Positions 35,500 to 56,124 of a stretch of 64,000 nt of DNA are shown here, one piece after another (position 1 is the stretch's first letter; every line of letters begins with the position of its first letter). Source of the stretch: Pseudactinotalea sp. HY158 (lineage in GTDB: Bacteria > Actinomycetota > Actinomycetes > Actinomycetales > Beutenbergiaceae); the NCBI RefSeq assembly GCF_009660225.1, contig NZ_CP045920.1, positions 682,001 through 746,000 of the forward strand, given 5' to 3'. Below the pieces are notes generated by a model. The model was not told where the DNA came from. It saw nothing but the letters and a program-made list of their open reading frames with translations, and ran no database searches. The position numbers and the translations under genes were made by a program.

Positions 35500-35954
35500 G
35501 ATTCCCCCAGGCGACCGTCCGAGAGATCGAGGGTGAACCGGTGTGAGCAGTCCGGGCACGTGACGGCCGCCCGGGTGTGCCCCTCGGTGTTGACCCGCCG
35601 GTAGAGGTCCTGCAGGAACGCGACGTCGGAGGCGAACATGTTCTCCACCACCGACGGGCCCAGGCTGCCGAGGGTCCCGAGCGAGGTCACGACCCGCCCG
35701 AGCAGCACGACGGTGGTGAACGCCGGATTCTCCTGAACACGGGCGTCGTAGGCGGGCATGAGCTCGTCCCGGGCCGTGGCCAGGCGCATCGTGCCCTCCC
35801 GGTGCAGGACCCCGTCCGCATCGAGATACCCCCGCGGCAGCACGAAGTCGAACTCCGTGCGCAGGGTCTCCCGCGGCGAGGGCTCCGACTGCACGGATTG
35901 GACCGGGAGTGCAGTCGGAGCCTCGGCGAGCTCCGGAGGGGAGCCTCGTCTCAC
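35496..35954 (-). CDS. T4 baseplate-hub-chaperone-like protein with a Cys pair
   Basis: A 152-residue protein with the pattern of the gp26/gp51-like family placed after tube genes in CIS loci (FDFVLPRGYLDADGVLHREG, residues 35-54; MRLATARDEL). Near the C terminus a CPDC pair occurs in a short segment that could be a degenerate zinc site. It overlaps the tube gene by 4 bp and the DUF6760 gene by 4 bp. The role would be assembly help for the tube or hub rather than a structural part. Confidence 0.7.
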   Translation of the reverse strand: MRRGSPPELAEAPTALPVQSVQSEPSPRETLRTEFDFVLPRGYLDADGVLHREGTMRLATARDELMPAYDARVQENPAFTTVVLLGRVVTSLGTLGSLGPSVVENMFASDVAFLQDLYRRVNTEGHTRAAVTCPDCSHRFTLDLSDGRLGES

Positions 35955-36400
35955 TGGAACTCCATCTCATCCCAGCAGACCGTGAACGACTCGGCGATCG
36001 GGTCGGTCGAGCCGGCCTTGAGGGTGCCGCTCACCTCGACGTCCTTGACCCAGCAGTTGCGGTAGCTGAGCTTCTTCACGATCGTGTCGTCCGAGGAGTA
36101 GATCGCCACCTCGGCGGTCTTCCGCGATCCGGCGAGATCCCCGCCCATGACGGCCTTGAGCCAGTCGGTGATCGTCTTCGAATCGGTGAGCCCCCGCTTG
36201 ACTGTGAACTCGCCGGGCTTCTGCCTGCCCATCATCTGGCGGGTGATGAACTTCCCGTCCGCCGCCTGATGCTGGTAGGTCACCTTGTCGACCTCGGCCT
36301 TGAGGCCCGAGACCTCCATGACGTAGGGGACCTGCACACCGTCGATCGTCACGCTGAACGAATAGGCCGGGGCGACGTCCATCGCGTCTGGTAATGGCAT
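35951..36400 (-). CDS. CIS inner tube protein, main copy
   Basis: A 149-residue gp19/Hcp-like protein that polymerises into the inner tube, equivalent to Afp1. The family pattern YSFSVTIDGVQVPYVMEVSGL (split here) is seen at residues 13-33, followed by KRGLTDSKTITDWLKAVMGG. It lies 32 bp after the sheath gene, as in most contractile systems, and overlaps the next gene by 4 bp. Confidence 0.95.
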   Translation of the reverse strand: MPLPDAMDVAPAYSFSVTIDGVQVPYVMEVSGLKAEVDKVTYQHQAADGKFITRQMMGRQKPGEFTVKRGLTDSKTITDWLKAVMGGDLAGSRKTAEVAIYSSDDTIVKKLSYRNCWVKDVEVSGTLKAGSTDPIAESFTVCWDEMEFQ

Positions 36401-36432: not shown

Positions 36433-37980
36433 CTATTCGGAGACGAGGCTGGCGCCGCCGGAGAACTGCGCGAGCTGGAAGATGACGAATTCGGCGGGCT
36501 TGACCGGGGCCACGCCGATCTGGCAGAGGACCTGGCCGGCGTCGATCGCCTCGGCCGGGTTGGTCTCACGGTCGCACTTGACGTAGAACGCCTCGTCCGG
36601 ACTGAGCCCGAACAGGGCGCCCTTGCGCCACTCGTTCACCAGGAACGAGGCGATGGTGCGCTGGATCCGGGCCCACAGCGCGTCGTCGTTCGGCTCGAAC
36701 ACGACCCACTGGGTGCCGATGAGGATCGACTTCTCCAGGTAGTTGAACAGGCGGCGCACGTTGAGGTAGCGCCAGGCGGGATCGCTCGAGAGGGTACGGG
36801 CGCCCCAGATGCGGATACCGCGGCCGGGGAAGCTGCGCACGCAGTTGATCCCGACCGGGTTGAGCAGGTCGTGCTCGGCCCGCGTGATCGTGGTCTGCAG
36901 CGAGATCGCCCCGCGCACCACCTCGTTCGCCGGGGCCTTGTGCACGCCGCGGGTGTCGTCGCTGCGTGCCCACACCCCGGCCATGTGGCCCGAGGGCGGC
37001 ACGAACGTCGCGGCGCCCGAGGCCGGGTCGAATACCTTGATGTAGGGCCAGTACAGCGTCGCGTACTTGGAGTCGTAGCCCGCGCCGTCGACGCGCCATT
37101 CCTTGATCTGCTGGGCGTTGAGGTTCGGGGGCGGATCGAGGATCGCCATCCGGTCGCCCATGAGCTCGCAGTGGGAGATCATCGCCAGCTGCACGGCCTG
37201 AACGCCCTCGAGGTCGATCGCACCCTGCTCGTAGGCGGCCATGAGATCGGGCACGGCGAGCATCGTCACGTCCTCGATCGCCTCGAGGCCCGCGAATCCG
37301 GTGCGCTCGGCGGCGTCTCCGACGTAGTCGTCCGCGCCGAGGCGCTCCGTGCTCGGCGGCTCGGGCGCCGGCTCCGGCGCGATGAGCTCCACCTCGCCCT
37401 TCGTCGGCTTCATCACCGCGCTTCCCTGGGCGACCTGCTCGATCGTGATGATCTTCGACTCGGCGCTCACCTTCGTGGCGACGTTGTCGCCGCCCTTCTT
37501 GGTGGTCACCCCGTCGAAGGTCTCGGCGGGCTTGCCGTCGACCTTGATCACGAGCTTGAACTTGTCCTCGCCCGCCTTGTCGTCGGCCGAGTCCTCGACC
37601 GCGATCGAGATCTTCTTGGTGGTGGACTCCTTCGCGGTCACGAGGAAGCCGGCAAGCTCACGCTGGGGCGGGCCCGCGATCTGCTTGCGGGAGCCCTTGC
37701 CGGACCCCCCGGCCGGCTCGGCGCCAATGCGCACGACATAACAGTTCCCGCCGCCGTTCTGGAAGTACCCGTAGACGGCATGGGCGAGATAGGAACCCGG
37801 GATGAAGTCGCCGAATGCCTCGGCGAACTGGGTCCAATTGGAGACCAGCGTGGGCTCGTTGACCGGGCCTTGCTCCGCTAGTCCGACGAATGCGGCGACG
37901 GCAGTGCCGACACCTTCGATCGGGCGTGATCCCGCCTCGACCTCCTCGACGTACACACCTGGTGACAGGTAGGTCGGCAT
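36433..37980 (-). CDS. CIS contractile sheath protein
   Basis: A 515-residue tail sheath. It has the hallmark start MPTYLSPGVYVEEVEAGSRP, then VGTAVAAFVGLAEQGPVNEP. A Lys-rich surface domain (about 90-215) is inserted before the conserved core. The C-terminal core includes DPAWRYLNVRRLFNYLEKSI and NEWRKGALFG, which form the inner scaffold of the sheath. GAGGAGAAGAG precedes the ATG. It is the only sheath gene in the window, unlike Afp with three. Contraction would drive the tube. Confidence 0.97.
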   Translation of the reverse strand: MPTYLSPGVYVEEVEAGSRPIEGVGTAVAAFVGLAEQGPVNEPTLVSNWTQFAEAFGDFIPGSYLAHAVYGYFQNGGGNCYVVRIGAEPAGGSGKGSRKQIAGPPQRELAGFLVTAKESTTKKISIAVEDSADDKAGEDKFKLVIKVDGKPAETFDGVTTKKGGDNVATKVSAESKIITIEQVAQGSAVMKPTKGEVELIAPEPAPEPPSTERLGADDYVGDAAERTGFAGLEAIEDVTMLAVPDLMAAYEQGAIDLEGVQAVQLAMISHCELMGDRMAILDPPPNLNAQQIKEWRVDGAGYDSKYATLYWPYIKVFDPASGAATFVPPSGHMAGVWARSDDTRGVHKAPANEVVRGAISLQTTITRAEHDLLNPVGINCVRSFPGRGIRIWGARTLSSDPAWRYLNVRRLFNYLEKSILIGTQWVVFEPNDDALWARIQRTIASFLVNEWRKGALFGLSPDEAFYVKCDRETNPAEAIDAGQVLCQIGVAPVKPAEFVIFQLAQFSGGASLVSE

Positions 37981-38106: not shown

Positions 38107-38865
38107 TCAGAGCTCCTCGTCCTCCACCGCGTCGCCGGCCTCCTCCCGCTGCACGAAGCGCTGCGTCTGGACGGCGGAGCTCGCCTCGTCCTCGAGCAGG
38201 TCCGTCTCCTCGGACGCGCGTTGGAGGGGCTGGGCCATGACCGAGTGCGCATTCGCCTCGGCCGCCCGCTCGAACCGGTCGCCCGGATCGGACAGCTGGA
38301 TGCCGCCGCCGGTGGGAGTGCCCGAGACCGGCCCGGAGCGTTGCTGGACCACGTGGGTGAGTTCGTGGGCGAGCAGGTGCCGCCCGGAGTCGCTGCCGGG
38401 CTGATAGTGCCCGGCGGAGAACACGATGTCGGAGCCGACCGTGTAGGCGTGGGCCTGCACGGACCGGGCCGAGGCGTCGGCTGCGCCGCCGGTGTGCACG
38501 CGCACGTCCGAGAAGTCGTGACCCATCCGGGTCTCCATCTCGGCGCGGGTGCCGGCCTCGAGCGGGGACCCGCTGGAGGAGGAGAGCAGGTCGAGCGCCG
38601 GCGAGCGGGCGTCGTCGATGAGCTCTTCGGTCGCGGCGTTGCCCGCGCTTCGCTGCAGGTCGAGCAGGCCGCGGGCGCCGAGCACCTCCGGATCGAAGGA
38701 GGCGAGCCCGGCGGGAGGGGACGCGGGCGCCGTCACGTTCGTCGCGCCGGGGCTGCGGGCCGGGCGTGACAAACGCTCCGTGCCCACCGAGCGCGGCCGG
38801 TCGGGGGTCTGCGGTCCGTGTTCGAGCATCATGCCTCCCGGTAGAGCTGTGCGCGCCATCCTCAC
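38107..38865 (-). CDS. DUF4157 protein (CIS-associated metallopeptidase-like domain)
   Basis: A 252-residue protein with the DUF4157 core: DLQRSAGNAA, a MGHDFSDVRVHTG segment near residue 116, DIVFSAGHYQPGSDSG and the zinc-peptidase motif HELTH near residue 168. This domain is strongly enriched in CIS loci, where it occurs in toxins and cargo. VQR/LQR motifs flank it (LQRASEE, VQTQRFVQREE). The frame starts at GTG 38865, but ATGs at 38832 or 38829 have a better GGGAGG site. It is 126 bp upstream of the sheath. It may be cargo, a processing protease or a chaperone-like carrier. Confidence 0.85.
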   Translation of the reverse strand: MRMARTALPGGMMLEHGPQTPDRPRSVGTERLSRPARSPGATNVTAPASPPAGLASFDPEVLGARGLLDLQRSAGNAATEELIDDARSPALDLLSSSSGSPLEAGTRAEMETRMGHDFSDVRVHTGGAADASARSVQAHAYTVGSDIVFSAGHYQPGSDSGRHLLAHELTHVVQQRSGPVSGTPTGGGIQLSDPGDRFERAAEANAHSVMAQPLQRASEETDLLEDEASSAVQTQRFVQREEAGDAVEDEEL

Positions 38866-38962: not shown

Positions 38963-39838
38963 TCACTCCCGCAGGGCGAGGTGCTGCGGCTCCGTGTCCA
39001 TGTGCTCCCCGTTGCCGGGGAGGCCGTCGACCGGGCCGGGACCCTCCCCGAGGGTCACCCCGGCGAAGGCCATCGGCAGGCCGTGCGCGGTGCGGAGCGA
39101 GGCCCGGTCCATGAGCTGGGCGTGCACGTGCGGTTCGCTGCTGTTGCCGCTGTTCCCGCACCGGCCGATCACGGTGCCCGCCGTGACCGCCTCGCCGACC
39201 CGGACCGTGACCGAGTGGCGCTGCAGGTGCGCGACGGTGGCGAACACGCCGTCGTCGGTGCGGATAGTCACGTGGTTGCCCAGCAGGAAGGACGGGCCGC
39301 CGATCTCGCGGATCATGCCCTCGATCATCAGATAGCCCACGGCGAGGAGGTTCGACCGGGACCGGTGGTCGCGGTGGCGGCGGGCGGCGCGGACGACGAC
39401 GCCGTCGGCCATCGCATGGACGGGCCGGCCGAACGCCGGATACTCCTGGGGGCGGCGCATGGGCCCCCGACCACCGAAGCTCGGGCGCGGGCGGTCGTGG
39501 GGCTCGTGCACGAGGTCGATCGCGTAGGCCTGTCCGTAGGCGCGGACGCCGTGGCTCGGGACCTTCGTGGCCGGGCTGTTGAGCGCAAGCCACCGCCCGT
39601 GCACCGGGGCAGGCACCGTGCGGGGCGCGTGCGCCGGGAGCAGCCGCGGGCCGGCGAACGTGATGATCACGGCCACGGCCCCGACGATGAGGGCCGCGTT
39701 CACGGCGGCGCCCCGCGCCGTGTCCACGAGGTCGTGATCGAGCGTGCGGAGTATCACCGCGTTGGCCACGAGTACGAGGCAGGCGGCGTAGTAGAGGAGC
39801 CCGCGGACTCGGTAGAGGGCCAGCAGCGCGGCGGTCAT
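38963..39838 (-). CDS. M23-family peptidase-like membrane protein
   Basis: A 291-residue protein with two hydrophobic N-terminal segments (about 8-28 and 45-65) and an M23/LytM-like domain. Possible metal ligands are His and Asp in the HGVRAYGQAYAIDLV stretch and the HxH of EPHVHAQLMD, in a lysostaphin-type fold with AHLQRHSVTVRVGEAVTAG. M23 enzymes cut peptidoglycan cross-links. The ATG at 39838 overlaps the ArsR-like stop by 4 bp. The DUF4157 gene starts 97 bp further on. It could open the wall for the CIS or be an unrelated passenger. Confidence 0.75.
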   Translation of the reverse strand: MTAALLALYRVRGLLYYAACLVLVANAVILRTLDHDLVDTARGAAVNAALIVGAVAVIITFAGPRLLPAHAPRTVPAPVHGRWLALNSPATKVPSHGVRAYGQAYAIDLVHEPHDRPRPSFGGRGPMRRPQEYPAFGRPVHAMADGVVVRAARRHRDHRSRSNLLAVGYLMIEGMIREIGGPSFLLGNHVTIRTDDGVFATVAHLQRHSVTVRVGEAVTAGTVIGRCGNSGNSSEPHVHAQLMDRASLRTAHGLPMAFAGVTLGEGPGPVDGLPGNGEHMDTEPQHLALRE

Positions 39839-44654: not shown

Positions 44655-45613
44655 GTGACGTCGAACTCTCCGGCCACTTCCTCGTCTATCGCGACGAGGC
44701 CGGCAACGCCCGCATCGACGTGCGCTTCGACGGCGACACCGTCTGGCTCACGCAGGCCCAGCTCGTCGACCTCTTCGATTCGTCCAAGGCGAATATCAGC
44801 GAGCACATCGCGAACATCATCGACGAGGGCGAACTCGCCGCTGAAGCAACTGTTCGGGATTTCCGAACAGTTCGGCAGGAGGGCTCCCGCCAGGTGCGGC
44901 GCTCCCTCACCCACTACAACCTCGACATGATCATCTCGGTCGGATACCGGGTGCGGTCCAAGACCGCGACGGCGTTCCGCATCTGGGCCACCCAGCGCCT
45001 CCGCGAGTTCATCGTCAAGGGTTTCGTGCTCGACGACGAGCGGCTCAAGAACCCCGACCTGCCCTTCGACTACTTCGACGAACTGCTCCAGCGGATCCAG
45101 GACATCCGCACCTCCGAGCGGCGCTTCTACCAGAAGATCACCGACGTGTACGCGACCTCGATCGACTACGACTCCGCCGCCGAGATCACGAAGGCGTTCT
45201 TCGCCACCGTGCAGAATAAGCTGCACTGGGCCATCACCGGCCAGACCGCCGCCGAGGTCGTCCGAGACCGCGCCGACTCGGCCAAACCCACCATGGGGCT
45301 GACCTCCTGGCGCGGCGACCGGATCAGGGCTGCCGACATCGCCGTCGCGAAGAACTACTGCACCGAGGACGAGCTGCGCGCGCTGAACAATCTCGTGGAG
45401 CAGTACCTGGCGGCACGCGAGCCCGCGCGCGGAGGAGCCATGAGCGACGTCGGACAGCATGAGCCGACGCACTACTTCGAGCGCAACCACGGCACGGCCT
45501 TCGCAGTGCTCATGGATGAACGTCTGCCCGACTGGCGCAGGCGGCGCACGCACAGGGGGCACGTCCCGCTCCGCTCCGAGGAATGGACCGCTCACCCCAG
45601 CAGCGACCAGTAG
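44651..45613 (+). pseudogene. RhuM-family protein, C-terminally truncated and read into an hsdR start and CIS antisense
   Basis: GTG 44651 with AGGAGG upstream. Residues 1 to about 253 match the RhuM family (VWLTQAQLVDLFDSSKANIS, AFRIWATQRLREFIVKGF, TSERRFYQKITDVYATSIDY), whose genes are common inside type I restriction operons. Normal members run about 80 residues further. Here the family match stops at LNNLVEQYL, and a GGAGGAGCC-ATG at 45440 then reads MSDVGQHE, like the start of HsdR. The last codons run 22 bp into the opposite strand of the CIS ATPase gene. The tail is thus a deletion scar; the N-terminal domain may still fold. Confidence 0.7.
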
Positions 45614-47589
45614 TCCCCGAACTCCTCGGCGAGGGTGAGCCGGCCGAGCTTGCGGTACTCGCGTTGCACGGCCGTGACCACGTGGCGCATCTGCACAGCG
45701 GCATCGGCCCCCTCGTCGGCGGCGTAATACGCGGCGGTGATCGCGGCGGAGCGGATCGCCCCACCCGAGAGGGTGAAGGCCTGGGCGCAGAAACGCAGGT
45801 CGAGATCGTCCGCGCGCGGCAGGTGGCGACCGAGGCACACGTCCCAGAGCAACTCGCGCTGCTCGGGCTCCGGCACGGGGAAGTCGACCACCACGTCGAG
45901 GCGACGGGTGAACGCGTCGTCGATATTGGCGCGCAGGTTCGTGGCGAGCAGCACGAGGCCGTCGAAGGTCTCGAGCCGCTGCAGCAGATAGGCGCTCTCG
46001 ATGTTCGCGTACCGGTCGTGGGCGTCCTTGACCTCGGAGCGCTTCCCGAAGATCGAGTCCGCCTCGTCGAAGAGGAGCACCGCGTTGACGCCGTCGGCGG
46101 CGGTGAAGATCCGTTCGAGGTTCTTCTCGGTCTCACCGATGTACTTGTCCACCACGGTCGCCAGGTCCACGACGTACAGGTCGAGCCCGAGGTCCCCCGC
46201 GAGCACCTCGGCCGACATCGTCTTACCCGTTCCCGAGTCGCCCGCGAAGAGCGCGGCGACGCCGTGCCCGCGGCCGCCGCCGGGGCGCATCCGCCATTCG
46301 CTCAGGACCCGCTCGCGGTGCCGGGCCCGCAGCGCCACTTCGCGCAGCCCGCCGAGCGCGGCCTCCGGCAGCACGAGCTCGTCCCAGCCGACGGTGGGGC
46401 TCACGCGCCGGGCGAGGCGTTCGAGGGCGGTGCCGTTCTGGGCGCGCGCCCCGGTCCGGATGTGTTCGACGCCGATGCCGGTCGCGCCGTCCGCGACGGC
46501 CGCGGCTCGGGCGGTCCGGGCCGCGTGATGGATCTGCTCGGGGCTCAGGCGGAACTGCGAGGTGAGCTCGAGGCCCGCGGGGTCCTCGAGGCCGAGCTGC
46601 TCGGCCCACAGTGCCGTGCGCTCGGCCAGGGTGGTCTCGGGGGCGTCGATACGCAGCGGGAGGCGCCGGCTCCAGCGCGGATCCCAGCTCTCCGAGCCGA
46701 TGAGGCATACGGGCACGTCCGCGGCGAGCTCATCGAGGAGTCCGGGGGCGAGCAGCAGCCGGTCGACCGGGCCGAGCACGAGGCCGGCCCCGGCGAGCCG
46801 GGCCTCCCGGGTGAGTAGCCGGAGCGCCTCCCGGGCCCGATCGGCGTCCGGCCACGGGGGCAGCTCGACGTTGAGCACTCCGCGGCCGACCCGCTCGAGG
46901 GCCCCGGCGGCCAGCAGTCGGCCCGAGCCGGTGCCGTGCTCCCGCACGTACACCGGATTCGCTCCGCCCTCGAGCGCCCGCGCCAGCGGCAGCGGATCGC
47001 CCCACGCCACCGGCGGCAGCGGGGCCAGCAGGCCCGCGATGTCCGGGTCGGGGGTGTCGTCGCCGAGCAGGTGGGCGACGACCCGTTCCGGCACCCGGAG
47101 CGCGCGCGAGGCGAGTGGGCGGTCGGGGTCCTCGAGGGTGAGCAGCCCGGAGGTCGGCAGCGGGCCGTGGGTGATCCGGGCGCGGTCGGCCCCGGACGTG
47201 AGCGCCAGCCCGCACAGCTCGAACGCGACCGCCGCCGAGACGCGGCGGCGGGTGACGTCGTCGTTGAGATAGCCGAACAGCTGCTCGAACCGCGGCTCCA
47301 CCTCGGGCGCGAGGGCGGTCATGAGCAGGTCGAGGTCGGCGCCGTCGAGCCCGCACGCCTGCGCGAGGCGTGCGAGCGGGCCGTGGCCGATCCGGGCGCG
47401 GCCGGCGGGGGGATCGGCCACGGCGCGCGCGTTCGCGAGGAGCTGTTCCACGCGCTCCTCGGAGATGTACAGGCCCCGGTAGGGGTCGTCCGGGGCGGGG
47501 TCGACGGCCCGCCGCGCGGCTACGAGATTTCGGATGCGCTGCTCGACCTCGGCCAGGGCCCCCAGAAGCGCGGCCGCGCGCTCGGTCAC
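45592..47589 (-). CDS. AAA+ ATPase of the contractile injection system
   Basis: About 665 residues, equivalent to Afp15, needed for particle assembly. The N-terminal half is a winged-helix/helical region with weak P-loop remains, as in this family. The C-terminal AAA+ domain has Walker A GDSGTGKT near residue 450, Walker B LLFDEADSIFGKRSE near 505, and a sensor/arginine-finger region LATNLRANIDDAFTRRLDV. The GTG at 47589 (VTERAAALLG) is chosen because family similarity starts there; the frame is open to 47694. It overlaps the extended DUF4255 frame. The gene is cut off from the structural genes by the insertion at 40.4-45.6 kb. Confidence 0.9.
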   Translation of the reverse strand: MTERAAALLGALAEVEQRIRNLVAARRAVDPAPDDPYRGLYISEERVEQLLANARAVADPPAGRARIGHGPLARLAQACGLDGADLDLLMTALAPEVEPRFEQLFGYLNDDVTRRRVSAAVAFELCGLALTSGADRARITHGPLPTSGLLTLEDPDRPLASRALRVPERVVAHLLGDDTPDPDIAGLLAPLPPVAWGDPLPLARALEGGANPVYVREHGTGSGRLLAAGALERVGRGVLNVELPPWPDADRAREALRLLTREARLAGAGLVLGPVDRLLLAPGLLDELAADVPVCLIGSESWDPRWSRRLPLRIDAPETTLAERTALWAEQLGLEDPAGLELTSQFRLSPEQIHHAARTARAAAVADGATGIGVEHIRTGARAQNGTALERLARRVSPTVGWDELVLPEAALGGLREVALRARHRERVLSEWRMRPGGGRGHGVAALFAGDSGTGKTMSAEVLAGDLGLDLYVVDLATVVDKYIGETEKNLERIFTAADGVNAVLLFDEADSIFGKRSEVKDAHDRYANIESAYLLQRLETFDGLVLLATNLRANIDDAFTRRLDVVVDFPVPEPEQRELLWDVCLGRHLPRADDLDLRFCAQAFTLSGGAIRSAAITAAYYAADEGADAAVQMRHVVTAVQREYRKLGRLTLAEEFGDYWSLLG

Positions 47590-48265
47590 GTCGTGGCTCG
47601 GCGGCGCGACCCGCCGGACTTCGCCGGCTCGGGGGCTCGGCCGGCTCGGCGCGCCCGGGCGGCTCGTGCCTCGTGCGCCGGGGGTCGGCGGCACCCGAGT
47701 CGGTGTCGGACATCTCCACGCCGGCGCCCCCGCTCGCGAGCGGGGCGATCGCGATCTCCGAGGGCACGAACGGGGCGGTGACGACCACGTCGATCGACGG
47801 CTTGAGCTGGCCGCCCAGGGCGGACCAGACGTCCGCGAAGCCGCGATCCTCGGGCGGTGGCATCCCGACCGAGAGCCGCACGTCGTTCTTGGCCGAGGCG
47901 AGCGCCCCGGTCAGGTCGCTGCGGGGGATCGACTCGTGCCACACGAGCGTCGCGAGCAGGCTGTCGAGGAGCCGGTGCTCGTCCTCGGGGCGCTGGGTCC
48001 ACGCGGTCACGAGGTAGGAGAGCTTGAAGAGTCGCTCGGCGGGCCGGCGGGCGGAGACCCGGCCGTCGACGACGTCGTTGCCCAGGCCCCACTGGCGCCA
48101 GCGGGAATCCTCCCGCAGGTCGTACAGGTAGAGGTTGACGGTCGGGGCGTTGCGTCGCGCCGCCCACTCGGTCGTGGGCGCGTCGAAGACCACCTCCACC
48201 TCCGCCTTGCCGAGCGCCTTGGTGCGCAGCAGGGAACTGAGCGCCTCGTCGATCTCCGGGATCAC
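46730..48265 (-). CDS. DUF4255 CIS cap/terminator protein with an abnormal C-terminal run-on
   Basis: Residues 1 to about 185 are DUF4255 (MIPEIDEALSSLLRTKALGK, NLYLYDLREDSRWRQWGL, LLDSLLATLVWHESIPR), equivalent to Afp16, which caps and sets the length of tube and sheath. Family members end at 180-230 residues. Here no stop occurs, and the frame runs another 326 codons across the ATPase gene to 46730, as an Arg/Ala/Pro-rich shadow-like sequence. A lost stop, a frameshift or a sequencing error near 47.6-47.7 kb is likely. Only about 47590-48265 should be trusted as coding for this protein. One base separates its start from the stop of the propeller gene. Confidence 0.75.
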   Translation of the reverse strand: MIPEIDEALSSLLRTKALGKAEVEVVFDAPTTEWAARRNAPTVNLYLYDLREDSRWRQWGLGNDVVDGRVSARRPAERLFKLSYLVTAWTQRPEDEHRLLDSLLATLVWHESIPRSDLTGALASAKNDVRLSVGMPPPEDRGFADVWSALGGQLKPSIDVVVTAPFVPSEIAIAPLASGGAGVEMSDTDSGAADPRRTRHEPPGRAEPAEPPSRRSPAGRAAEPRRDRARGRASGGPGRGRAAHPKSRSRAAGRRPRPGRPLPGPVHLRGARGTAPRERARRGRSPRRPRPDRPRPARTPRAGVRARRRRPRPAHDRPRARGGAAVRAAVRLSQRRRHPPPRLGGGRVRAVRAGAHVRGRPRPDHPRPAADLRAAHPRGPRPPTRLARAPGAGTGRRPPARRRHPRPGHRGPAGPAAAGGVGRSAAAGAGARGRSESGVRAGARHRLGPTAGRRGPRAGRPRSAQRRAAPVAGRRSGPGGAPATHPGGPARRGRPRARPGRPAAARPRTPR

Positions 48266-48266
48266 A

Positions 48267-51200
48267 TCAACCTCGCGTGACGAATTCGGGCGGCTCCAGG
48301 CCCCGCGGGACCACGAGCAGCGTGGGTGGCGTCTCGAGCCCGAAGCTCGTGCCCGAGACGTGGGTCACCTCGACCTCCCGCTCGCCGAGCTCGTCGCCCT
48401 CGATGATGAGCATGGAGAAGCGGAGCGTGCCGTCGTCCCGGGCCTCGATCGGCCCGGCGGAGGCCGTGACCCCCTCCGACCAGCGCGTGCTGATCACGGC
48501 ATCGGGCGGCAGGTCGACCCCGTACAGGAGCGTGACATCGCCCGGGCGGGCGACGGCCGGCAGCAGCCGCAGGGTCGCCTGGACCGCCTCGAAGGCGGCG
48601 GTGGCCGTGTTGTTCGCGGGCGCCGGGTCGGGTGTCGTCGCCGCGACGACCGCCTCGATCTCCAGGTCGCCGACCTCGGTGGGCAGCAACGTGAGCCTCA
48701 GGGTCGTCTGCTCATCCGGCCCGAGGTCACCCAGCAGGCACACGCCCCGCCGTGGGCACGGGCCGGGATCGGTGACCTCCACGGACTCCGGAATGTTCAA
48801 CGTGAGTTGGGTCCCCGCCGCCGTCACGGGCCCGTCATTATGGACGACGATGCTCGCCTCGAGCCCGTCCCCTCCGAGCCAGGCGCGATCCTCCGCGAGC
48901 GTCAGCCGCACCCGTAGGTCGGCGTCCGTGTCCGCGGGGTCAGACGGGTCGGACGGCCGCGGGGTGGGCGTGGGCGAGGGGACGCTGGTCGTCGTGAGGA
49001 CGATCGTGGCCGTGTCGTTCGTGTCGTTCAGGTCGATCGAGTTGGTCGCCACGGTCACATTCACCTCGTGATCGCCGGCAGCGCCCGGCAGGCCCACCGG
49101 GATGGTGAACGTGACGTGGTCGCCGACCGGGATCGTGTCGTCGTGGGTGCAGGTGATCGTCGCCGCCGCGAGCGTGCATCCGGCCGGCAGCGGGCCCGGC
49201 ACGACACCGTCCGGCACCGGGATCGTCGCGAGTGCGTCGCGGGCCGGGGACGGGCCGGTGTTCGTCACGGTGACGGTCACGGCGGTCGACCCGCGGGCCG
49301 GAATCGGCCCCGGGTGGTCGAGGGTGAGGCCCAGGTCGCTCAGCGGGACGTAGTCGGGGTGGTCGACCGCCGATTGGTACGCGTACCTCGTGTACTCCGC
49401 CGTGTACATCGAGGTGGGCACGGCGTCCTCGACGGCCGGATCGATCTCGACGATCTGATCGGGCCGGTCCCTGCCGAGCGAGCGGGCGAGCGCGATCCGC
49501 TCCCCGTCCGGGGACCACGTCGCGGCGCTGACGTCGAGCTCGGAGTACGCGTCCGGGTCGGCCCCGGGGTCGGCCAGGTCGATGGCGACGGGCGTGGTCA
49601 CGACGATGTCGCCGGCGCCGGCCGGGTCGATCTGCGGCAGGTCGAGCACGAAGAGCCCGTCGAAGTCCGAGATCAGGTCGGTGAAGGCGACTCGATCGCC
49701 GCCGGGGGACCAGGACGGCTCGGCCCCGTCCACGCCGCAGGGCTCGCTCCCGACCGCGCAGTCGTCCGGCCCCAGCACGATCGGGCGCAGGGTGGGATCG
49801 GCGAGCGAGACGTAGAACAACTCCATCCGGTAGGTGTCGCCGATGACGGCCGAGAAGATGAGCCCGGTGCCGTCGGGGGACCACGTGGGGCTGGAGACCC
49901 TGTGGACGTCGTCGAAGCCCGCGAGCGGGAAGGTGAGGTCGCCGGTGGCCACGTCGATGACGGAGAGTTCACCGTCGAAGCCGCGGTCGTACGGCGCGCG
50001 CACGAACGCGACCCGGGTCGCATCCGGGGACCACACGGGTTCGCTGTCGGTGTAGAGGGCGTCGCGGTCGTCGCCGACGTCGACGACCGGGTCCGTGAGG
50101 GCGGTGATATTCGCCAGGTCGAGGGTGCCCGGTTCACCCAGATCTCCCTGCTGCCGACCGTAGACGTCGGCGACGACCAGTTGCCGGGCGCTCGTGGCGT
50201 AGCCCGAGCCGATGTCGAGTTGATGCTCGGAGATCCGGTCGTAGACGACCCGGCCGCCGTCCGGCGAGTAGTCGATGTTGTCCTCGTCGGTCGGGTACGG
50301 GGTGCCGGTGCCGGCGCCGCCCGGGAACGTCAGCTCGGGGAAGACGCTGTCGGCGAGAACGAGGTAGGAGTCCGGGCCGGCCGCACCGGCCGGCTCGGGG
50401 ACCGCCTGCACGAGATCGTGCGAGGGCGGGCCGGAGTAGTACTCGCTCGGTTGCTCGCCTCGCAGACTGAAGGCGATCCGCTCCGTTTCCGGGTAGGTCG
50501 GGGCGGCCGCGTCGATCGTGATCGCCACCTCGTCGTTGTCGGCCACCGGATCGATCGAGTTCGTGCGGATCGCGGCGGTCACGTCGTTGGCGCCGGCGGT
50601 GCTCAGGTACACGTCGATCTGCCCGGAGACACTGTCGCCGACGGCGATCGGCCCGTCGACCGAACACGTGAGGGTCGTCGAGGCGAGGGTGCAGCGGTAG
50701 GGCACGTAGTCGAGTTCCGCACCCGCGGGGATCTCGATCGTCACCTCCCCGTCCCGGGCGGGGGAGGGCCCGGTGTTCGTCAGGGTCCACTCGACCGTCG
50801 CCGGCCGCCCGGCGGTGACCTCGGCGTCGGCCTCGAGCCCGATCGCCAGGTCGGCGACGGGTTCGTAGGCGGGGTTCGAGAGCGAGTACTCCGGCGCGAG
50901 GGGCCGGAAGTCCACGGTCGACACGCCGTCGTCGAGGTGGAAGGTGACGAGGCTCGATGGTTCCTCCCCGGTCCCCTCGAACGCCTCGGTCCGGGCGGCG
51001 GTCGTCAGGAGGCCTCCGTCGGGTGACCAGGCGGGCTCGTAGAAGCCCACCCACTCGTCGAGGTCGGGATCCTGCTCCGCGCTCAGGCGCGTGACCGCGC
51101 TCGCGGTCGGTGGGGCGCCGGGGCGGGTGAGCAGGTCGAGCACGAAGACGGCGTCCCCAGAACGCCCGCCCTCGAACTCCGGCGCGCCCGCGGTCACCGC

Positions 51201-53759
51201 GAGCCGCGCCGGACCGGAGCCGCCGGGGGGTGAGAAGGCGGGGGCGCGGGCGGGCACGATCCCCATGCACGGCTCGGACAGCCCGGCGCAGTCGGTCACG
51301 CCGGGTGCGAAATCGAGTGGCACGGGAGTCTCGGTCGTGCCCGTGACGGGCACGTACCAGAGCCCGCGCGGCTGATCCGAACCCGCGACGGATCCGTCCT
51401 CGACGGCGAAGACGATCCCACCGCCGTCCGGACTCCAGGTGGGCGAGGAGATCTCGAGGCCGCCGGTGTCGGCCAGCCAGGTCGGGTCGAGGAGATCCGT
51501 GGCGGCGTCGGTGCCGGCCGGGTCGAGGAGCAGCACCCTGCTCGACCCGATCGTCGTCCAGGAGGCGTCGGGATCGAAGTAGCGGCGCACGACGGCCAGG
51601 GTGGAACCATCGGGCGACCACGCGGGGTCCACATCGGTGAAGAGGTCGTCGGGTACGGGGTTCGGTGGTGGCTCGGGCGCCACGATCTCGGTGGCGCCGC
51701 CGAACGTGCCCGGATCGGCCTGCCGGCTCCCGCTCACATCGGCGACGACGATCCGGTGGTTCTCCGTGTCGTAGCTCGCCTCCTCAGTCGGGAGGATCTC
51801 GCGGGAGTATGCCACGCGGGAGCCGTCCGGGGAGTAGTCGAGGCCGTCCTCGTTGCGGAGCTGTGGCCCCTCGGGGCCGTCGACCGTGCCCGAGGCGAGC
51901 ACCCGGTAGTTCTCGCTCGTGCTCGCGGGGTCGGCGAGTGACTGCACGAGGTCGAGGCTCCAGGAGTTCTCCCCGTCGATCTCGCCGACCCGGTCCATCG
52001 TGAACGAGAGCCGTTCCTGCCGGGCGTTCGTGGGCAGGGAGGGCTCGTCGGCCAGCGTCAGGTAGTCGGACTCGTAGTTCGACCCGCCCGCGAATCGAGA
52101 CACCGTCGGGTCCGGGGAGGGCGACGATACGGACGCATCCCAGTAGGTGCCGCCCGGCACCTGTGGGGTGAAGGAGTACTCGACGCTCAGCTGTGCCGAC
52201 GCATCCGGCGTCTCTGTGAGCGGCTCGAGGCGGGCCACCTCGCAGCGCACCGCGGAGGAGGACGCGATCACGCACCCGGGGGGCGGCTGCACGGCGGTCG
52301 ACCCTCGGGGAATTCCGAGGAGGAGCCATCCGGGCCGGGAGGGGGAGGGGCCGTGATTCGTCACGGTCACCGTGACCGTGACCGGGGTTCCGACAACGGT
52401 GGCGGGGGAGAGCTCGGCCTCGAGCCCCAGGTCGCTCCACGGCTGCACGGACATCGAGGTCGCGTACGCGAACTGGTCGGTCAGCAGGGTCGCGGCCGGC
52501 ATCGGCTCGTCGTCGGTCGGGGGAGGCAGTTCGAAGATGGAGTACTGGTCGCCCTCGCCGGTCCACGTGTCGACGTCTAGCAGAAGCGATCCGGTCGGCA
52601 GCCAGGCGATGTCGTTGATCGTCGGCCCCTCGTACTCGGGGTCGACGGCGTCGGCGTCGGTCCAGCCCACCGCATTCTCGGTCACGGTGATGGTGCCTGC
52701 AACAGGCGTCAGATCGGCCGGGAGCGTGAGCCGGTAGACGGTGAACCCATCCTCCACGATCGCTAGGACCTGCGGGTCCGTCGGGGACCAGGCAAGCTCG
52801 TCGATCCCCGAGAAGTCGTCCGGGCAGTAGTCGTCCTCGTCCGCCATCGTGAAGCAGACGCCGGGGCCGAGCACGATCTCGCTCGCCGTTCCGCTCGACA
52901 GGTCGTAGTGCCACAGCGCGGAGGGTCCGTCGCGGTAGCCGGGCTGCGGGGGTGCGAACATGCCCATGAACTCACCGATCCGACCGCGGAAGACGAGTGA
53001 ACCGCCGTCCGGCGACCAGGACGGGTCGATGCTCCACTGGATGAGCGTGTCGTCGCCCGCCGGATCGGGCAGCTCGATCGGCGCCGGGTTCGGGGCGGAG
53101 TCGTCCGCGGGCTGGTCGAGGTCGTAGATCCAGATCCGCGGCCCGTCCGCGGCGGGCTGCCCGGCGGCGTCGACGGGCCGGTTCCGCACGAACGCGATAT
53201 GGCGTCCGTCCGGTGACCACTGCGCCCCGAAATCGCTGTCGGTCTCGCGTGGGGAGGCGTCGAGCGGGGTGGGGGCGTCGAGGGGGCCTGCGGCCTGATC
53301 CTCCTGGGCGCCGAGCACGCCGGCCGTCATGAGCCGCCAGACGTCGGGAGTGTCCGGGTTGTCGTCCGGGTCGGTCTGCTCGCTGTAGACGACCTCGCTC
53401 CCGTCGGGCGAGTAGGACAGGTCGGCGGTCGCCGGATCGTCGGCGCCCGAATCGTCGCCGGCGGGCAGCATGGACCGGCTCCCGATCGCCTCGACCCCCG
53501 GGCGGTAGGCGAAGTCGTGCAGTCTGGAGTCGGTCGGCCGGCCGGCGCCGTCGAACGTGGCCGAGGTGGTCACGGCGATCCGCGGAGCGAGCGCCGCGGG
53601 ATACGTCACCGCATCGGGCGGAGGCGCCGCGAGCGGCGGATGGACGACGGTCACGCCCCCGAGCGTGAGCAGGAGCGCCACCGGGAGGGTCACCGCGAGC
53701 GCGCCCCGGCCCGCGTGGCGCCACGCGCGCGGCAGCGGCACGCCGGTGCTCACCGGCAT
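48267..53759 (-). CDS. Giant secreted beta-propeller and DUF11 protein at the head of the CIS cap operon
   Basis: About 1830 residues. An N-terminal hydrophobic segment (ALAVTLPVALLLTLGGVTVV) acts as signal or anchor. The rest alternates TolB/WD40-like propeller strands (SYSPDGSEVVYSEQ, QWSPDGRHIAFVRN, SWSPDGGSLVFRG and many more) with four DUF11/CARDB-like domains (VTVTVTNTGPSPARD, and similar). Three propeller-DUF11 modules and a last DUF11 unit can be counted. No C-terminal sorting signal is seen. The start is the ATG at 53759 or the GTG at 53753, the latter 5 nt after AAGGA. It stops one base before the DUF4255 start, so it is cotranscribed with CIS genes. It could bind partner surfaces or the wall; role unknown. 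Confidence 0.8.
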   Translation of the reverse strand: MPVSTGVPLPRAWRHAGRGALAVTLPVALLLTLGGVTVVHPPLAAPPPDAVTYPAALAPRIAVTTSATFDGAGRPTDSRLHDFAYRPGVEAIGSRSMLPAGDDSGADDPATADLSYSPDGSEVVYSEQTDPDDNPDTPDVWRLMTAGVLGAQEDQAAGPLDAPTPLDASPRETDSDFGAQWSPDGRHIAFVRNRPVDAAGQPAADGPRIWIYDLDQPADDSAPNPAPIELPDPAGDDTLIQWSIDPSWSPDGGSLVFRGRIGEFMGMFAPPQPGYRDGPSALWHYDLSSGTASEIVLGPGVCFTMADEDDYCPDDFSGIDELAWSPTDPQVLAIVEDGFTVYRLTLPADLTPVAGTITVTENAVGWTDADAVDPEYEGPTINDIAWLPTGSLLLDVDTWTGEGDQYSIFELPPPTDDEPMPAATLLTDQFAYATSMSVQPWSDLGLEAELSPATVVGTPVTVTVTVTNHGPSPSRPGWLLLGIPRGSTAVQPPPGCVIASSSAVRCEVARLEPLTETPDASAQLSVEYSFTPQVPGGTYWDASVSSPSPDPTVSRFAGGSNYESDYLTLADEPSLPTNARQERLSFTMDRVGEIDGENSWSLDLVQSLADPASTSENYRVLASGTVDGPEGPQLRNEDGLDYSPDGSRVAYSREILPTEEASYDTENHRIVVADVSGSRQADPGTFGGATEIVAPEPPPNPVPDDLFTDVDPAWSPDGSTLAVVRRYFDPDASWTTIGSSRVLLLDPAGTDAATDLLDPTWLADTGGLEISSPTWSPDGGGIVFAVEDGSVAGSDQPRGLWYVPVTGTTETPVPLDFAPGVTDCAGLSEPCMGIVPARAPAFSPPGGSGPARLAVTAGAPEFEGGRSGDAVFVLDLLTRPGAPPTASAVTRLSAEQDPDLDEWVGFYEPAWSPDGGLLTTAARTEAFEGTGEEPSSLVTFHLDDGVSTVDFRPLAPEYSLSNPAYEPVADLAIGLEADAEVTAGRPATVEWTLTNTGPSPARDGEVTIEIPAGAELDYVPYRCTLASTTLTCSVDGPIAVGDSVSGQIDVYLSTAGANDVTAAIRTNSIDPVADNDEVAITIDAAAPTYPETERIAFSLRGEQPSEYYSGPPSHDLVQAVPEPAGAAGPDSYLVLADSVFPELTFPGGAGTGTPYPTDEDNIDYSPDGGRVVYDRISEHQLDIGSGYATSARQLVVADVYGRQQGDLGEPGTLDLANITALTDPVVDVGDDRDALYTDSEPVWSPDATRVAFVRAPYDRGFDGELSVIDVATGDLTFPLAGFDDVHRVSSPTWSPDGTGLIFSAVIGDTYRMELFYVSLADPTLRPIVLGPDDCAVGSEPCGVDGAEPSWSPGGDRVAFTDLISDFDGLFVLDLPQIDPAGAGDIVVTTPVAIDLADPGADPDAYSELDVSAATWSPDGERIALARSLGRDRPDQIVEIDPAVEDAVPTSMYTAEYTRYAYQSAVDHPDYVPLSDLGLTLDHPGPIPARGSTAVTVTVTNTGPSPARDALATIPVPDGVVPGPLPAGCTLAAATITCTHDDTIPVGDHVTFTIPVGLPGAAGDHEVNVTVATNSIDLNDTNDTATIVLTTTSVPSPTPTPRPSDPSDPADTDADLRVRLTLAEDRAWLGGDGLEASIVVHNDGPVTAAGTQLTLNIPESVEVTDPGPCPRRGVCLLGDLGPDEQTTLRLTLLPTEVGDLEIEAVVAATTPDPAPANNTATAAFEAVQATLRLLPAVARPGDVTLLYGVDLPPDAVISTRWSEGVTASAGPIEARDDGTLRFSMLIIEGDELGEREVEVTHVSGTSFGLETPPTLLVVPRGLEPPEFVTRG

Positions 53760-53887
53760 CCTTCGGTGCTGCTCAGGTTCACGCTTCCAGCCCTTCCATG
53801 ACCCGCGCGCCGGGGCGTCGTGCCCGGTCCGGCCCGCGGACGTCGTGCCTCGTGGTCCACTGCGCCGTCGACGCTCGCCATCCCAGT

Positions 53888-53905
53888 CTCGCCCGCGCGG
53901 GCGAG
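53888..53905. terminator. 18-bp perfect palindrome between LuxR-like and propeller genes
   Basis: CTCGCCCGCGCGGGCGAG is fully self-complementary and lies 80 bp downstream of the regulator stop on the minus strand. It could end or attenuate that transcript, but no T-tract follows. Confidence 0.35.
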
Positions 53906-53984: not shown

Positions 53985-54608
53985 TCAGATGAGGCCCTCG
54001 CGCAGCGCATAGGCCACCGCATGTGAGCGGTTGCGCAGCTGGAGCCGGGAGGTGACGTCGTGCAGCACGTTCTTGACCGTCCGCTCGGAGTAGCTCAAGG
54101 TCTTGGCCACCTCGGTGGTGTCGTAGCCGTCGGCGATGAGGCGCAGCACCTCGATCTCGCGGGCGGCGAGGCCGTTGAAGGTCAGCCCGCGGGGCTCGAG
54201 GATCTGCCGCTGCAGCTGGCCCACCTGGCTCATGAGCCGGCCGAGGAGGTCCGGGGGGACCATGCCCTGGCCGGCGGCGGCGATGCGGATGACCTCGACG
54301 AGCCGGTCGGCGGAGGCGTCCTCACGGTGGACGACGCCGACGACGCCCGCCTCGATCGCGGTGACGAGCTCGCCGTCATCGATCTGATTGATCACCAGGA
54401 CCGACTTGGTGATGCCCCGGCGCTGGGCGCTGCGGAGCCGGCGCAGCGTCGGCTCGTCGAGCGAGGTCGTCACGATCATGGCCACATCGGCCGATTCCCG
54501 CTCCTCGGTGTCGAGGAGTCGCAATTCCGGGCGCACCCGGAGTTGACTGATGATTCCGGCGCGCGAGATCGGGTCTGCTGCGCTGATCCATACCTGAATG
54601 ATCTCCAT
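53985..54608 (-). CDS. LuxR-type response regulator with an atypical receiver domain
   Basis: A 207-residue transcription factor. The ATG at 54608 has AAGGAG 5 nt upstream. The receiver-like domain lacks the phosphoacceptor Asp (ADVAMIVTTSLDE in its place), and the conserved Lys is replaced (GVVHRED), so it cannot be switched by ordinary phosphorylation. The C-terminal LuxR helix-turn-helix is intact (LAAREIEVLRLIADGYDTTEVAKTLSYSERTVKNVLHDV). Streptomyces CIS loci also carry a LuxR regulator at one edge. It is divergent from the COG1470/PAAR pair and likely controls both arms of the CIS. Confidence 0.85.
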   Translation of the reverse strand: MEIIQVWISAADPISRAGIISQLRVRPELRLLDTEERESADVAMIVTTSLDEPTLRRLRSAQRRGITKSVLVINQIDDGELVTAIEAGVVGVVHREDASADRLVEVIRIAAAGQGMVPPDLLGRLMSQVGQLQRQILEPRGLTFNGLAAREIEVLRLIADGYDTTEVAKTLSYSERTVKNVLHDVTSRLQLRNRSHAVAYALREGLI

Positions 54609-54700
54609 CGGAACTCCTTCGGCCGGGGGAACGGGACGGAACGGTTCGGTCGCGTCGTCGGGGTTGCGGTTCGACGAGAGTATGACGCGGTGCACTTTAC

Positions 54701-54717
54701 GTCCGCTTAACACGGAC
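54701..54717. promoter_or_regulatory. Inverted repeat in the divergent LuxR/COG1470 region
   Basis: GTCCG-7 nt-CGGAC with a repeated CTTAAC element lies midway between the divergent starts, a fitting position for a LuxR-family operator acting on both promoters. Symmetry and place only. Confidence 0.4.
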
Positions 54718-54795: not shown

Positions 54796-56124
54796 ATGAG
54801 CACGATGGCGCGACTCGAGGAGACAACCGTTCGGCTGACGGCCGGCACCACGGAGACGGTGCCGCTGCTCATACGCAACGACAGCGACATCGTCGAGGGC
54901 TACCGGTTCGAGGTCCTGGGGGTGCCCCAGGAATGGACGAGCGTCGAGCCCGCCGAGATCACGGGGCTCTACCCCGGGGCGCAGACCACGGCCGCGATCA
55001 CCTTCGCGCCCCCCGTCTCCGCACAGGTGCCGGCCGGACGGTTCGATTTCGGCGTCCGGGTCATCCCCACGGAGAACCCCGAGAACGTGGTCGTTCCCGA
55101 GGGGATGGTCGAGGTCCTCCCGTTCCTGCAGACCACGGCCGAGCTCATTCCGCGCACGTCGCACGGCCGGCGGGGCGCCCGTCATCGGCTCGCGGTCGAC
55201 AACCGCGGGAACGCGCCGGTCACCGTGCAGCTCACGGGCGGTGACGAGGCCGGGGCGCTCGAGGTCGAGGTCACCCCGCCGTCGCTCACGGTCGAGCCGG
55301 GGCACGCGATGTTCACCGACCTCAAGGTCTCCCCGCTCGACAAGTTCTGGCGGGGGCCGGAGGTCACCCATCCGTTCACGGTGACGGTGGCGGCCGACGC
55401 CTCGACCCCGGTCGTACTCGACGGCACGCACGTTCAGGAACCGCTCGTGCCCACGTGGCTGCCCAAACTGCTCCTGGCCCTGCTGGCGCTGCTCATCCTG
55501 CTCGCACTGCTCTGGTTCCTGCTGCTCAAGCCGACGATCGTCTCCGCCGCACAGGCCGCGGTGGCCGAACCCGTCGAGCAGGCGAACGAACGGGCGGCCG
55601 ACGCGATGCAGGCGGCACAGCAGGCGGGGGAGAAGGCCGACCAGGCCGGCACGGCCGCGCAGTCGGCACAGAGCTCCGCCGTCGACGCGGGTGACGCCGC
55701 GAATACCGCGAACGAGCTCGTGGGCAGCCCGACCCTCGACGAGGTGGTCTCCCCGATCTCGGACCGGTTGCACACGACCACCGCGGCGGGTTCGACCAAC
55801 CAGGCGATCTTCGAGGTGCCGGAGAAGACGACGCTCAAGCTCACCGACTTCGTGCTTTCGAACCCGCAGGGCGACTTCGGCCGGCTCGAGGTGCACCTCG
55901 ACGACAGCGTGATCTTCGACGTCGCCCTCGAGAACTTCCGCAACACCGACTACCACTTCCAGGCGCCGTTCGTGGCGTCGTCGGGCTCGCGGCTGCGGAT
56001 GGTGGTGCGGTGCGACGAGGTGGGCGTGCCGCCCGCGCAGACACCGCCGCCGACCACGTGCGACACGGCCGTGCTCTGGGGCGGGCAGATGCTCAAGCCG
56101 GCGCCGAAGCCCGCCGAGGACTAG
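54796..56124 (+). CDS. COG1470-type membrane protein of the CIS locus
   Basis: A 442-residue protein. Residues 5-215 form two immunoglobulin-like beta domains (VRLTAGTTETVPLLIRNDSD; RHRLAVDNRGNAPVTVQLTGGD). A strong membrane helix follows at about 221-246 (LLLALLALLILLALLWFLLL), then an Ala/Gln-rich coiled coil of about 70 residues, then a beta domain up to the end. Similar genes, sometimes labelled hydrolytic protein, sit in Streptomyces CIS loci. It probably links the particle to the membrane or senses the envelope. It is followed by the PAAR tip gene 21 bp away. Confidence 0.75.
   Translation: MSTMARLEETTVRLTAGTTETVPLLIRNDSDIVEGYRFEVLGVPQEWTSVEPAEITGLYPGAQTTAAITFAPPVSAQVPAGRFDFGVRVIPTENPENVVVPEGMVEVLPFLQTTAELIPRTSHGRRGARHRLAVDNRGNAPVTVQLTGGDEAGALEVEVTPPSLTVEPGHAMFTDLKVSPLDKFWRGPEVTHPFTVTVAADASTPVVLDGTHVQEPLVPTWLPKLLLALLALLILLALLWFLLLKPTIVSAAQAAVAEPVEQANERAADAMQAAQQAGEKADQAGTAAQSAQSSAVDAGDAANTANELVGSPTLDEVVSPISDRLHTTTAAGSTNQAIFEVPEKTTLKLTDFVLSNPQGDFGRLEVHLDDSVIFDVALENFRNTDYHFQAPFVASSGSRLRMVVRCDEVGVPPAQTPPPTTCDTAVLWGGQMLKPAPKPAED

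Follow-up and report, generated by a model that had tools for sequence, protein, structure and literature searches.

A 64,000-nucleotide stretch of the Pseudactinotalea sp. HY158 chromosome (contig NZ_CP045920.1, positions 682,001 to 746,000), hereafter the window, contains a contractile injection system (CIS) gene cluster and, next to its cap gene, the gene of a giant protein built of propeller and DUF11 modules. This protein is a conserved exported component, for which the literature consulted gave no description, of many actinobacterial CIS loci and of at least one Chloroflexi CIS locus. It ends in a small domain, here named CAD, which very probably partners with ENFR, the outer domain of a single-pass membrane protein encoded nearby in the opposite direction. 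Whether this pair serves the CIS in outside-in sensing or anchoring is judged an even matter. The explanation preferred as a whole, in which a CAD-docked exported rod would form the outside sensing or anchoring arm of an intracellular CIS, is given a probability of about 0.5.

The exported giant protein

The open reading frame (ORF) of the giant protein is real. It runs on the minus strand from an ATG at 53759 to a stop codon at 48267-48269, and its codon score (539.3) is the best among the genes called in the window, the next being 248.4. The longest in-frame form begins at a GTG at 53951, codes for 1,894 aa and has a GC content at third codon positions of 0.91. The size of about 1830 residues and the three propeller-DUF11 modules described in a first-pass annotation of this DNA are borne out. 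Pfam returns PD40 (1.9e-22) and DUF11 (PF01345, 4.5e-32, three stretches), SPDG-type blade motifs form three clusters (residues 114-322, 640-911 and 1162-1415), and each cluster is followed by an NxGPSP motif of DUF11 (residues 468, 995 and 1500). With these DUF11 domains the protein agrees with the description of DUF11 surface proteins. The same annotation had overlooked an additional DUF11-like domain and the C-terminal CAD, which is the informative part of the protein.

The protein appears to be exported, as previously proposed, on the basis of a signal-peptide-like start and of 14 cysteines arranged in seven close pairs (spacing of 6-10 residues). A simple rule finds such a start in 56 of 59 untruncated relatives, a set that does not include the window protein. 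The C-terminus reads ...PPEFVTRG and carries neither an LPXTG-type wall anchor nor a sorting signal. A single base lies between the stop codon and the cap gene, which starts with GTG, in agreement with the first-pass annotation, and this spacing suggests that the two genes are cotranscribed. Scans of positions 47500-55500 for sigma-70 promoters and terminators, which are weak at this GC content, gave none. The genome itself holds no second match to the giant protein at E 0.001.

An AlphaFold2 model of the last 600 residues, obtained from a 25-row alignment (predicted local distance difference test score, pLDDT, 86.3), covers the greater part of propeller 3 and three Ig-like domains, of which two are DUF11 domains and the third is CAD. 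The last ten residues of CAD have a mean pLDDT of 60. No Pfam family covers this domain, the only matches being three weak ones with one member each, and an arginine is found among the last three residues in all 67 CAD ORFs of related loci. Because the fold-search lists were dominated by the Ig domains of the membrane protein (1-216) and by the propeller, they are uninformative on the novelty of the ENFR and CAD folds.

CAD and its linkage to CIS loci

A search for related loci with the whole giant protein as query found none, and the cap alignment then served as query for the 80-locus sample described below. Among 59 relatives, a homologue of the giant protein is present in 9 (the window's own included) and a Pvc16_N cap gene in 16. 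In all 9 it lies directly beside the cap gene, and the 8 relatives with enough contig share the same order: the divergent membrane protein gene, then the LuxR regulator, the exported protein, the cap and the AAA+ ATPase. A profile of the 600 C-terminal residues was swamped by the common PD40 and DUF11 domains, with matches in at least 176 of 396 genomes, and CAD alone was needed. Among the matches listed for that profile, seven outside its own rows, in five genomes, reach the C-terminal end and all are in CIS loci.

The CAD profile comprises 16 rows, a weak row (L120) being left out, and was searched in three overlapping samples of 396, 394 and 287 genomes. Full-length matches score 87-132 bits and are separated from the next best in each sample (55, 37 and 48 bits). 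The first-pass annotation had proposed to check co-occurrence with CIS in other genomes, and had named homologues mainly lacking CIS neighbours as the outcome that would speak against it. The distribution is the reverse: each of the 31 full-length matches, in 28 genomes, has a cap gene no more than 11 kb away. Sixteen of them are rows of the profile, including all 11 of the phylum sample, and two (G014 and G018) were already known. The 13 new matches, from the class and order samples, constitute independent evidence and each is directly upstream of a cap gene. None of seven sub-threshold controls, chosen among the best such matches and not at random, has a cap, AAA+ or sheath gene within 20 kb; a lower sub-threshold match, in genome G088, sits in a CIS locus. 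In the related loci, 56 of the 67 CAD ORFs with at least 60 bits are directly upstream of the cap gene on the same strand. The 67-ORF and 59-relative CAD counts include 5 loci entered twice, and 12 Pvc16_N sites are covered by loci of 2-4 kb only. The giant protein is genuinely linked to CIS, more strongly than the first-pass annotation could know.

CAD and ENFR occur together

The likely partner, which went unnamed in the first-pass annotation, is encoded by the divergent gene beyond the LuxR regulator. Its Ig domains resemble pilus chaperones, WxLIP and Cep192, and are followed by a transmembrane (TM) helix, a disordered linker and ENFR, a well-predicted beta domain for which neither Pfam nor NCBIfam gave a match in the window protein. 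Set against the published description of Sco4256-4258, the protein shows the same features, namely a single TM helix, a pilus-chaperone-like N-terminal domain, a C-terminal domain and a CIS link. Two cysteines are kept in the ENFR half in 48 of 48 loci and none is conserved in the inner half, and the N-terminal part of two partner homologues (L266 and L232) has weak zinc-ribbon matches below the Pfam cut-offs. These features point to a topology with the Ig-like inner domain in the cytoplasm and ENFR outside.

Altogether 136 loci were scored with thresholds of 60 bits for CAD, 30 bits for ENFR and 100 bits for the partner; 14 of them, including the seven controls, have no match to the IId-type cap model. 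The cap-alignment sample contains the best 80 of at least 587 loci by likeness to the window cap, and is biased to window-like loci. In this sample CAD and ENFR are both present in 31 loci and ENFR occurs without CAD in one (L287). Another 14 lack CAD and have a partner homologue with a different ectodomain or none; in 29 both CAD and an above-threshold partner are missing; and five have CAD and no partner in the available stretch (four at contig ends, plus L264). Where a partner homologue is present the counts are 31 with both domains, none with CAD only, one with ENFR only and 14 with neither. When the window is added and at least 5 kb upstream of the cap is required, which leaves out 9 of 81 loci, the 72 remaining loci divide into 32 with both, 38 with neither, one with CAD only (L264) and one with ENFR only (L287).

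The other 42 cap-matched loci show both domains in 21, CAD and no partner in the available stretch in seven, another ectodomain in six and neither in seven. The last one, L120, has ENFR with no full-score CAD and a weaker CAD-like protein nearby. Among the seven partnerless loci, the partner of G289 is just outside the stretch, two have it in their duplicate entries of the 80-locus sample, and L035, L104 and L205 are at contig ends.

The two domains also switch together within groups. In three Arthrobacter and Pseudarthrobacter loci (L224, L225 and L228) CAD is absent and the partner continues for 26-29 residues beyond the matched domain, to end shortly after the TM helix; both domains are present in Pseudarthrobacter sulfonivorans (L223) and Arthrobacter AK04 (L226). 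Agromyces has four loci with another ectodomain and no CAD, and two with both domains. The Nocardioides loci also switch CAD and ENFR together, and of two Chloroflexi metagenome-assembled genomes one has both, with CAD across the cap, and the other neither. Gain and loss are indistinguishable in these switches. On the cap tree there are 9 changes of CAD and 7 of ENFR; the supported branches give about four independent pairs, with a mean of 3.8 changes in the same direction and approximately none in the opposite one (p 0.125).

Ten partner homologues from CAD-less loci were scanned for their ectodomains, of which three gave no clear family or one below the cut-off. The ectodomains recognised are ricin-type lectin domains (L111 and L113), PASTA repeats (L266, Geodermatophilus, 4.6e-35), fn3 domains (L259; L302 just under the cut-off), collagen-like sequence (L232) or carboxypeptidase-regulatory-like repeats (L041). 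A second CIS type, in L041-L044 and L123, has large NEW3-like membrane proteins after the cap, some with carboxypeptidase-regulatory-like repeats. Cap loci of Mycobacterium, Mycolicibacterium, Rhodococcus and Nocardia (L239, L241, L242, L254, L269, L272, L277, L278, L283 and L293) contain distant NEW3-repeat proteins with, apparently, several C-terminal hydrophobic stretches, and no CAD.

Pairs also occur away from CIS genes. In four genomes belonging to one family (f45), a CAD-like exported protein is encoded next to a NEW3-type/ENFR membrane protein, with no CIS gene in 20 kb (L216-L219, in G242, G210, G146 and G168; three of the four were inspected). A cap match occurs in 30 genomes; G168 is one of them, with the cap gene about 470 kb away, and G242, G210 and G146 are not. 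These four genomes and G088 account for the five cases of ENFR found beside 51 sub-threshold CAD loci, the best per search, which span about 3 kb each, so that ENFR genes at distances beyond about 1.5 kb would escape notice. The CAD-ENFR pair may predate its use in CIS loci or extend beyond it.

CAD and ENFR diverge together

Sequence divergence was compared over 48 loci, with the 5 duplicate loci left out. CAD distances correlate with those of ENFR (0.70), of the inner half of the membrane protein (0.61) and of the cap (0.55). The partial correlation of CAD with ENFR, given cap and inner half, is 0.39 (0 of 2000 permutations as high), whereas with the inner half, given cap and ENFR, it is 0.07 (264 of 2000 permutations as high). 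CAD consequently tracks the outer half of its proposed partner.

The rest of the exported protein behaves differently. In 60 pairs of close loci, the mean identity is 0.85 for the cap, 0.73 for the inner half, 0.73 for ENFR, 0.68 for CAD and 0.56 for the rest of the exported protein, CAD proteins with fewer than 300 residues before CAD being left out of this comparison. The rest of the protein is below CAD in 56 of the 60 pairs, which are not independent. The pair L031/L034 illustrates this behaviour, with CAD 0.98, ENFR 0.96 and the rod 0.60 identical. The N-terminal modules found on the shared CAD include PD40/DUF11, VWA with HYR, PKD and DUF5122 propellers, and one protein is without any family; the ORF lengths vary several-fold, up to about 2,100 aa. 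The docking end would thus remain constant while the reading end changes.

Proposed mechanism and alternative explanations

The coupled presence, the coupled divergence and the shared neighbourhood together suggest that CAD docks on ENFR. The giant protein would be exported and stay attached to the cell surface through CAD at its C-terminus, docked onto the ENFR ectodomain of the neighbouring membrane protein. The Ig-like domains of the latter would be kept in the cytoplasm, the site of CIS assembly, where this inner domain could communicate with the CIS. The propeller/DUF11 rod would be the fast-evolving recognition part and bind something in or beyond the wall. Through the CAD and ENFR proteins the CIS would acquire an outside arm, either for sensing the envelope or for anchorage, and stress or a ligand at this arm could bias CIS recruitment or firing. 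The first-pass annotation had suggested a wall tether, a sensor or a docking protein; the last of these gains support from the tie of CAD to ENFR, docking itself being presumed from that tie. Tentatively, CAD-ENFR may even be a portable outside-to-inside receptor module, found in many actinobacteria and in one Chloroflexi lineage or more, in which the fast-evolving rod clicks through a constant domain onto a family with exchangeable ectodomains that bind wall or glycan, and supplies an external trigger or anchor of a cytoplasmic CIS.

The published background is drawn from portions of PMC12237407, PMC10066040, PMC6767563, PMC2000904, PMC8213781, PMC12998442, PMC12402492, PMC10020575 and PMC13277306. 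An envelope-reading arm is plausible in view of what these portions report for Streptomyces: the cytoplasmic CIS contracts under stress, with death of its own cell (PMC10066040); CisA is needed for contraction in situ; the targets of the envelope-stress factor sigma-E include the sheath gene SCO4253 and the LuxR regulator SCO4263, which is wholly sigma-E-dependent; and SCO4263 is required for SCO4251-4253. In the portions of the open-access PMC literature consulted, no description of the exported protein or of a CAD-ENFR tie was found, those on the S. coelicolor CIS mention no such protein, and a word search of the main text of Geller 2021 for propeller, WD40, DUF11, PD40 and PASTA found none.

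Several points weigh against a sensing or anchoring arm, above all the effector behaviour of Sco4256-4258. According to the sections consulted of Casu et al. 2023 (PMC10066040), this partner family consists of effectors and not receptors, approximately 85% of the tubes look empty in the Sco4256-4258 mutant, stress death is gone without the three proteins, and all three are toxic in E. coli. The match of the ricin-type homologue L111 to CDtoxinA (7.7e-9) also fits an effector. Single loci depart from the coupling: L287 (Cellulomonas cellasea) has ENFR and no CAD, L264 (Glycomyces) has CAD and no partner in the available stretch, and G698 has CAD and no partner homologue in about 38 kb, an additional 19 kb included. 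A large neighbour in L287 (2-4765, cut by the contig start) was considered as a hidden CAD protein and rejected, as it matches REase_MTES_1575 only. The CAD-positive L281 rests on a 76-residue ORF, and in the Chloroflexi locus L301 the CAD gene is 7.7 kb away on the other side of the cap. CAD is not required for a CIS, being absent from 44 of the 80 loci of the cap-alignment sample. The rows of the ENFR model come from loci with CAD or a CAD-like protein, three other-ectodomain rows having been dropped by eye, which favours the finding of ENFR in such loci; the other-ectodomain partner sequences plainly differ from ENFR or stop early. The divergence test leaves some shared ancestry in, and the cap-tree test has low power. 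Finally, sigma-E-like promoters (GAAC-N15-18-CGTC) are not enriched in the window (20 matches, 17.8 expected), and none is between the LuxR and membrane-protein genes.

If Sco4256-4258 are effectors, the CAD protein could either confer immunity from outside or serve as the receptor of an effector once inserted. Outside immunity is a serious rival, although unlikely: the ENFR membrane protein would be a CIS effector, and the exported CAD protein would neutralise the outer domain of this effector, in the producing cell or in sibling cells. Besides the published effector role and the empty-looking mutant tubes, there is the covariation of one gene with the C-terminal domain encoded by the adjacent one, which has the look of an effector-immunity pair. 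However, the protein is very large, with changing N-terminal modules that exceed the needs of a neutraliser, loci with ricin-, PASTA- and fn3-type partners have no CAD protein (no search was made for another neutraliser), and CIS-free pairs exist, three of the four in genomes without a cap match. A receptor or anchor is favoured over immunity by the large rod with its changing modules, by the CAD-less ectodomains and by the CIS-free pairs, although these do not settle the matter.

A plain surface adhesin or matrix protein is a rather improbable explanation. ENFR would be a mere membrane anchor and the CIS locus a mere address, with adhesion or display following CIS-driven lysis and no signal to the CIS. 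The rod modules are typical of adhesins and surface layers and the CIS-free CAD-like/ENFR pairs would suit such a role; nevertheless, a general adhesin has no need of the confinement of full-length CAD matches in the genome samples to CIS loci, mostly between regulator and cap.

A structural or cargo part of the particle, such as a fibre, tape measure or delivered protein, is very improbable. The gene is inside the operon adjoining the cap, and the particle published for S. coelicolor lacks a fibre. On the other hand, the signal-peptide-like start shared with the relatives, the seven cysteine pairs and the several-fold differences in ORF length do not suit a particle part, and the published particle model consists of nine proteins of the SCO4242-4260 cluster (the CAD gene was not searched for in that strain). 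That an ordinary secreted DUF11/propeller protein is a neighbour by chance, as the commonness of PD40 and DUF11 might suggest, is scarcely credible, since the CAD-bearing form is found only in CIS loci of the genome samples and the linkage contradicts it.

The sensing or anchoring arm remains the preferred explanation. The CAD-ENFR pair is a concrete, testable candidate for the means by which a CIS reads or grips the outside, its tie questions whether Sco4256-4258-type proteins are cargo only, and two undescribed domains are indicated.

The CIS cluster and neighbouring genes

The coordinates of the features are collected in Table 1. Cap, AAA+, sheath, tube, hub, gp25, gpJ and eCIS core genes are found in one cluster, as in type IId CIS, and the cluster is, judged from its genes, a type IId-like CIS. 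Directly after the baseplate genes is a TM protein that agrees in architecture and position with the description of CisA. The first-pass annotation regarded the system as otherwise fibre-less. No tail-fibre family was found among the window proteins scanned, several ORFs having no family; the fibre position (24242-26011) is, however, occupied by the gene of CisA/Sco4242 architecture.

Table 1. Features of the CIS locus and of the genes of the exported protein and its putative partner (window positions).
Feature	Position	Strand	Basis or content
Exported giant protein, 1,830 aa	48267..53759	-	signal-peptide-like start, 3 propeller + DUF11 modules, extra DUF11-like domain, C-terminal CAD
Signal-peptide-like N-terminus of giant protein	53625..53759 (approximate)	-	direct sequence reading
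CAD, C-terminal domain of ~104 residues (residues ~1725-1830)	48270..48587	-	no Pfam family
LuxR/GerE regulator, between giant protein and membrane-protein genes	53985..54713	-	
Divergent single-pass membrane protein, 442 aa	54796..56124	+	two Ig domains, TM helix, ENFR ectodomain
ENFR ectodomain, residues 316-435	55741..56100	+	block pLDDT 91-97, two conserved cysteines
Cap gene ORF (Pvc16_N 2.9e-40)	46730..48265; conserved part ~47674-48265	-	Pfam
AAA+ ATPase	45592..47694	-	family scan
M23 peptidase in cargo region	38963..39838	-	family scan
eCIS_core protein	38107..38865	-	family scan
Contractile sheath	36433..37980	-	family scan
Tube protein, T4 gp19 type	35951..36400	-	family scan
Second tube protein	31508..31933	-	family scan
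CIS_tube family protein	30703..31488	-	family scan
Hub/spike, Phage_base_V + Phage_GPD	28917..30725	-	family scan
gp25 baseplate wedge	28502..28906	-	family scan
Baseplate J	26547..28499	-	family scan
Tail_P2_I baseplate protein	26008..26547	-	family scan
CisA/Sco4242-like membrane protein	24242..26011	-	zinc ribbons, TM, NADase-type discoidin domain (71 bits, cut-off 38)

The cap frame has no stop where its relatives end (198-306 aa), stays open for 511 aa and overlaps the AAA+ ORF by 965 bases, which reflects either a true overlap or a sequencing frameshift. Two plus-strand genes oppose the operon between AAA+ and the cargo region (43725-45613) and code for a DUF4357 protein and a RhuM-family protein (1.7e-92). 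Adjoining the eCIS_core gene (38963-40437) are the M23 peptidase gene and an ORF that weakly matches an ArsR-like family, together possible wall-cutting cargo. An ORF of 1,134 aa between the tube genes (31937-35341) has no family match, a poor coding score and unsure borders. At the far end of the cluster a large BTAD/AAA regulator (21262-24255) converges on the CisA-like gene.

Comparison with known systems

As an exported PD40-repeat propeller, the giant protein recalls TolB of the Tol-Pal system, with which its C-terminal propeller aligns over 192 residues (Z 17.6, root-mean-square deviation 2.8). It differs from TolB in having three propellers, DUF11 domains and CAD, and its score for the TolB equivalog of NCBIfam, 48.7 bits, is below the cut-off of 343.15. 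The ectodomains of integrin alpha chains, top Foldseek matches of the model, share the order of a propeller followed by Ig-like domains. With TM-scores of 0.20-0.25 on the model and about 10% identity, this is a likeness of layout and not kinship.

PASTA domains read the cell wall. The partner homologue L266 resembles PASTA-type wall sensors in having PASTA repeats as its ectodomain and differs from them in its inner part, which is NEW3/Ig-like, its scan having given no kinase domain. The closest known counterparts of the window membrane protein are Sco4256-4258, which the consulted sections of PMC10020575 and PMC10066040 describe as CIS-linked proteins with one TM helix, a conserved pilus-chaperone-like N-terminal domain and a C-terminal domain. 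The ectodomain of Sco4257 and Sco4258 is ricin-type (PMC10066040), whereas that of the window protein is ENFR, tied to an exported protein, and a role as receptor or anchor is proposed here instead of cargo.

The S. coelicolor type IId CIS (SCO4242-4260) and the window cluster have in common the cap, AAA+, eCIS core, sheath, tube and baseplate genes, a CisA-like gene after the baseplate genes, a LuxR regulator and a Sco4256-4258-like membrane protein. The window differs in having an exported CAD protein encoded upstream of the cap, and its locus can be regarded as a type IId-like CIS with a putative added surface arm.

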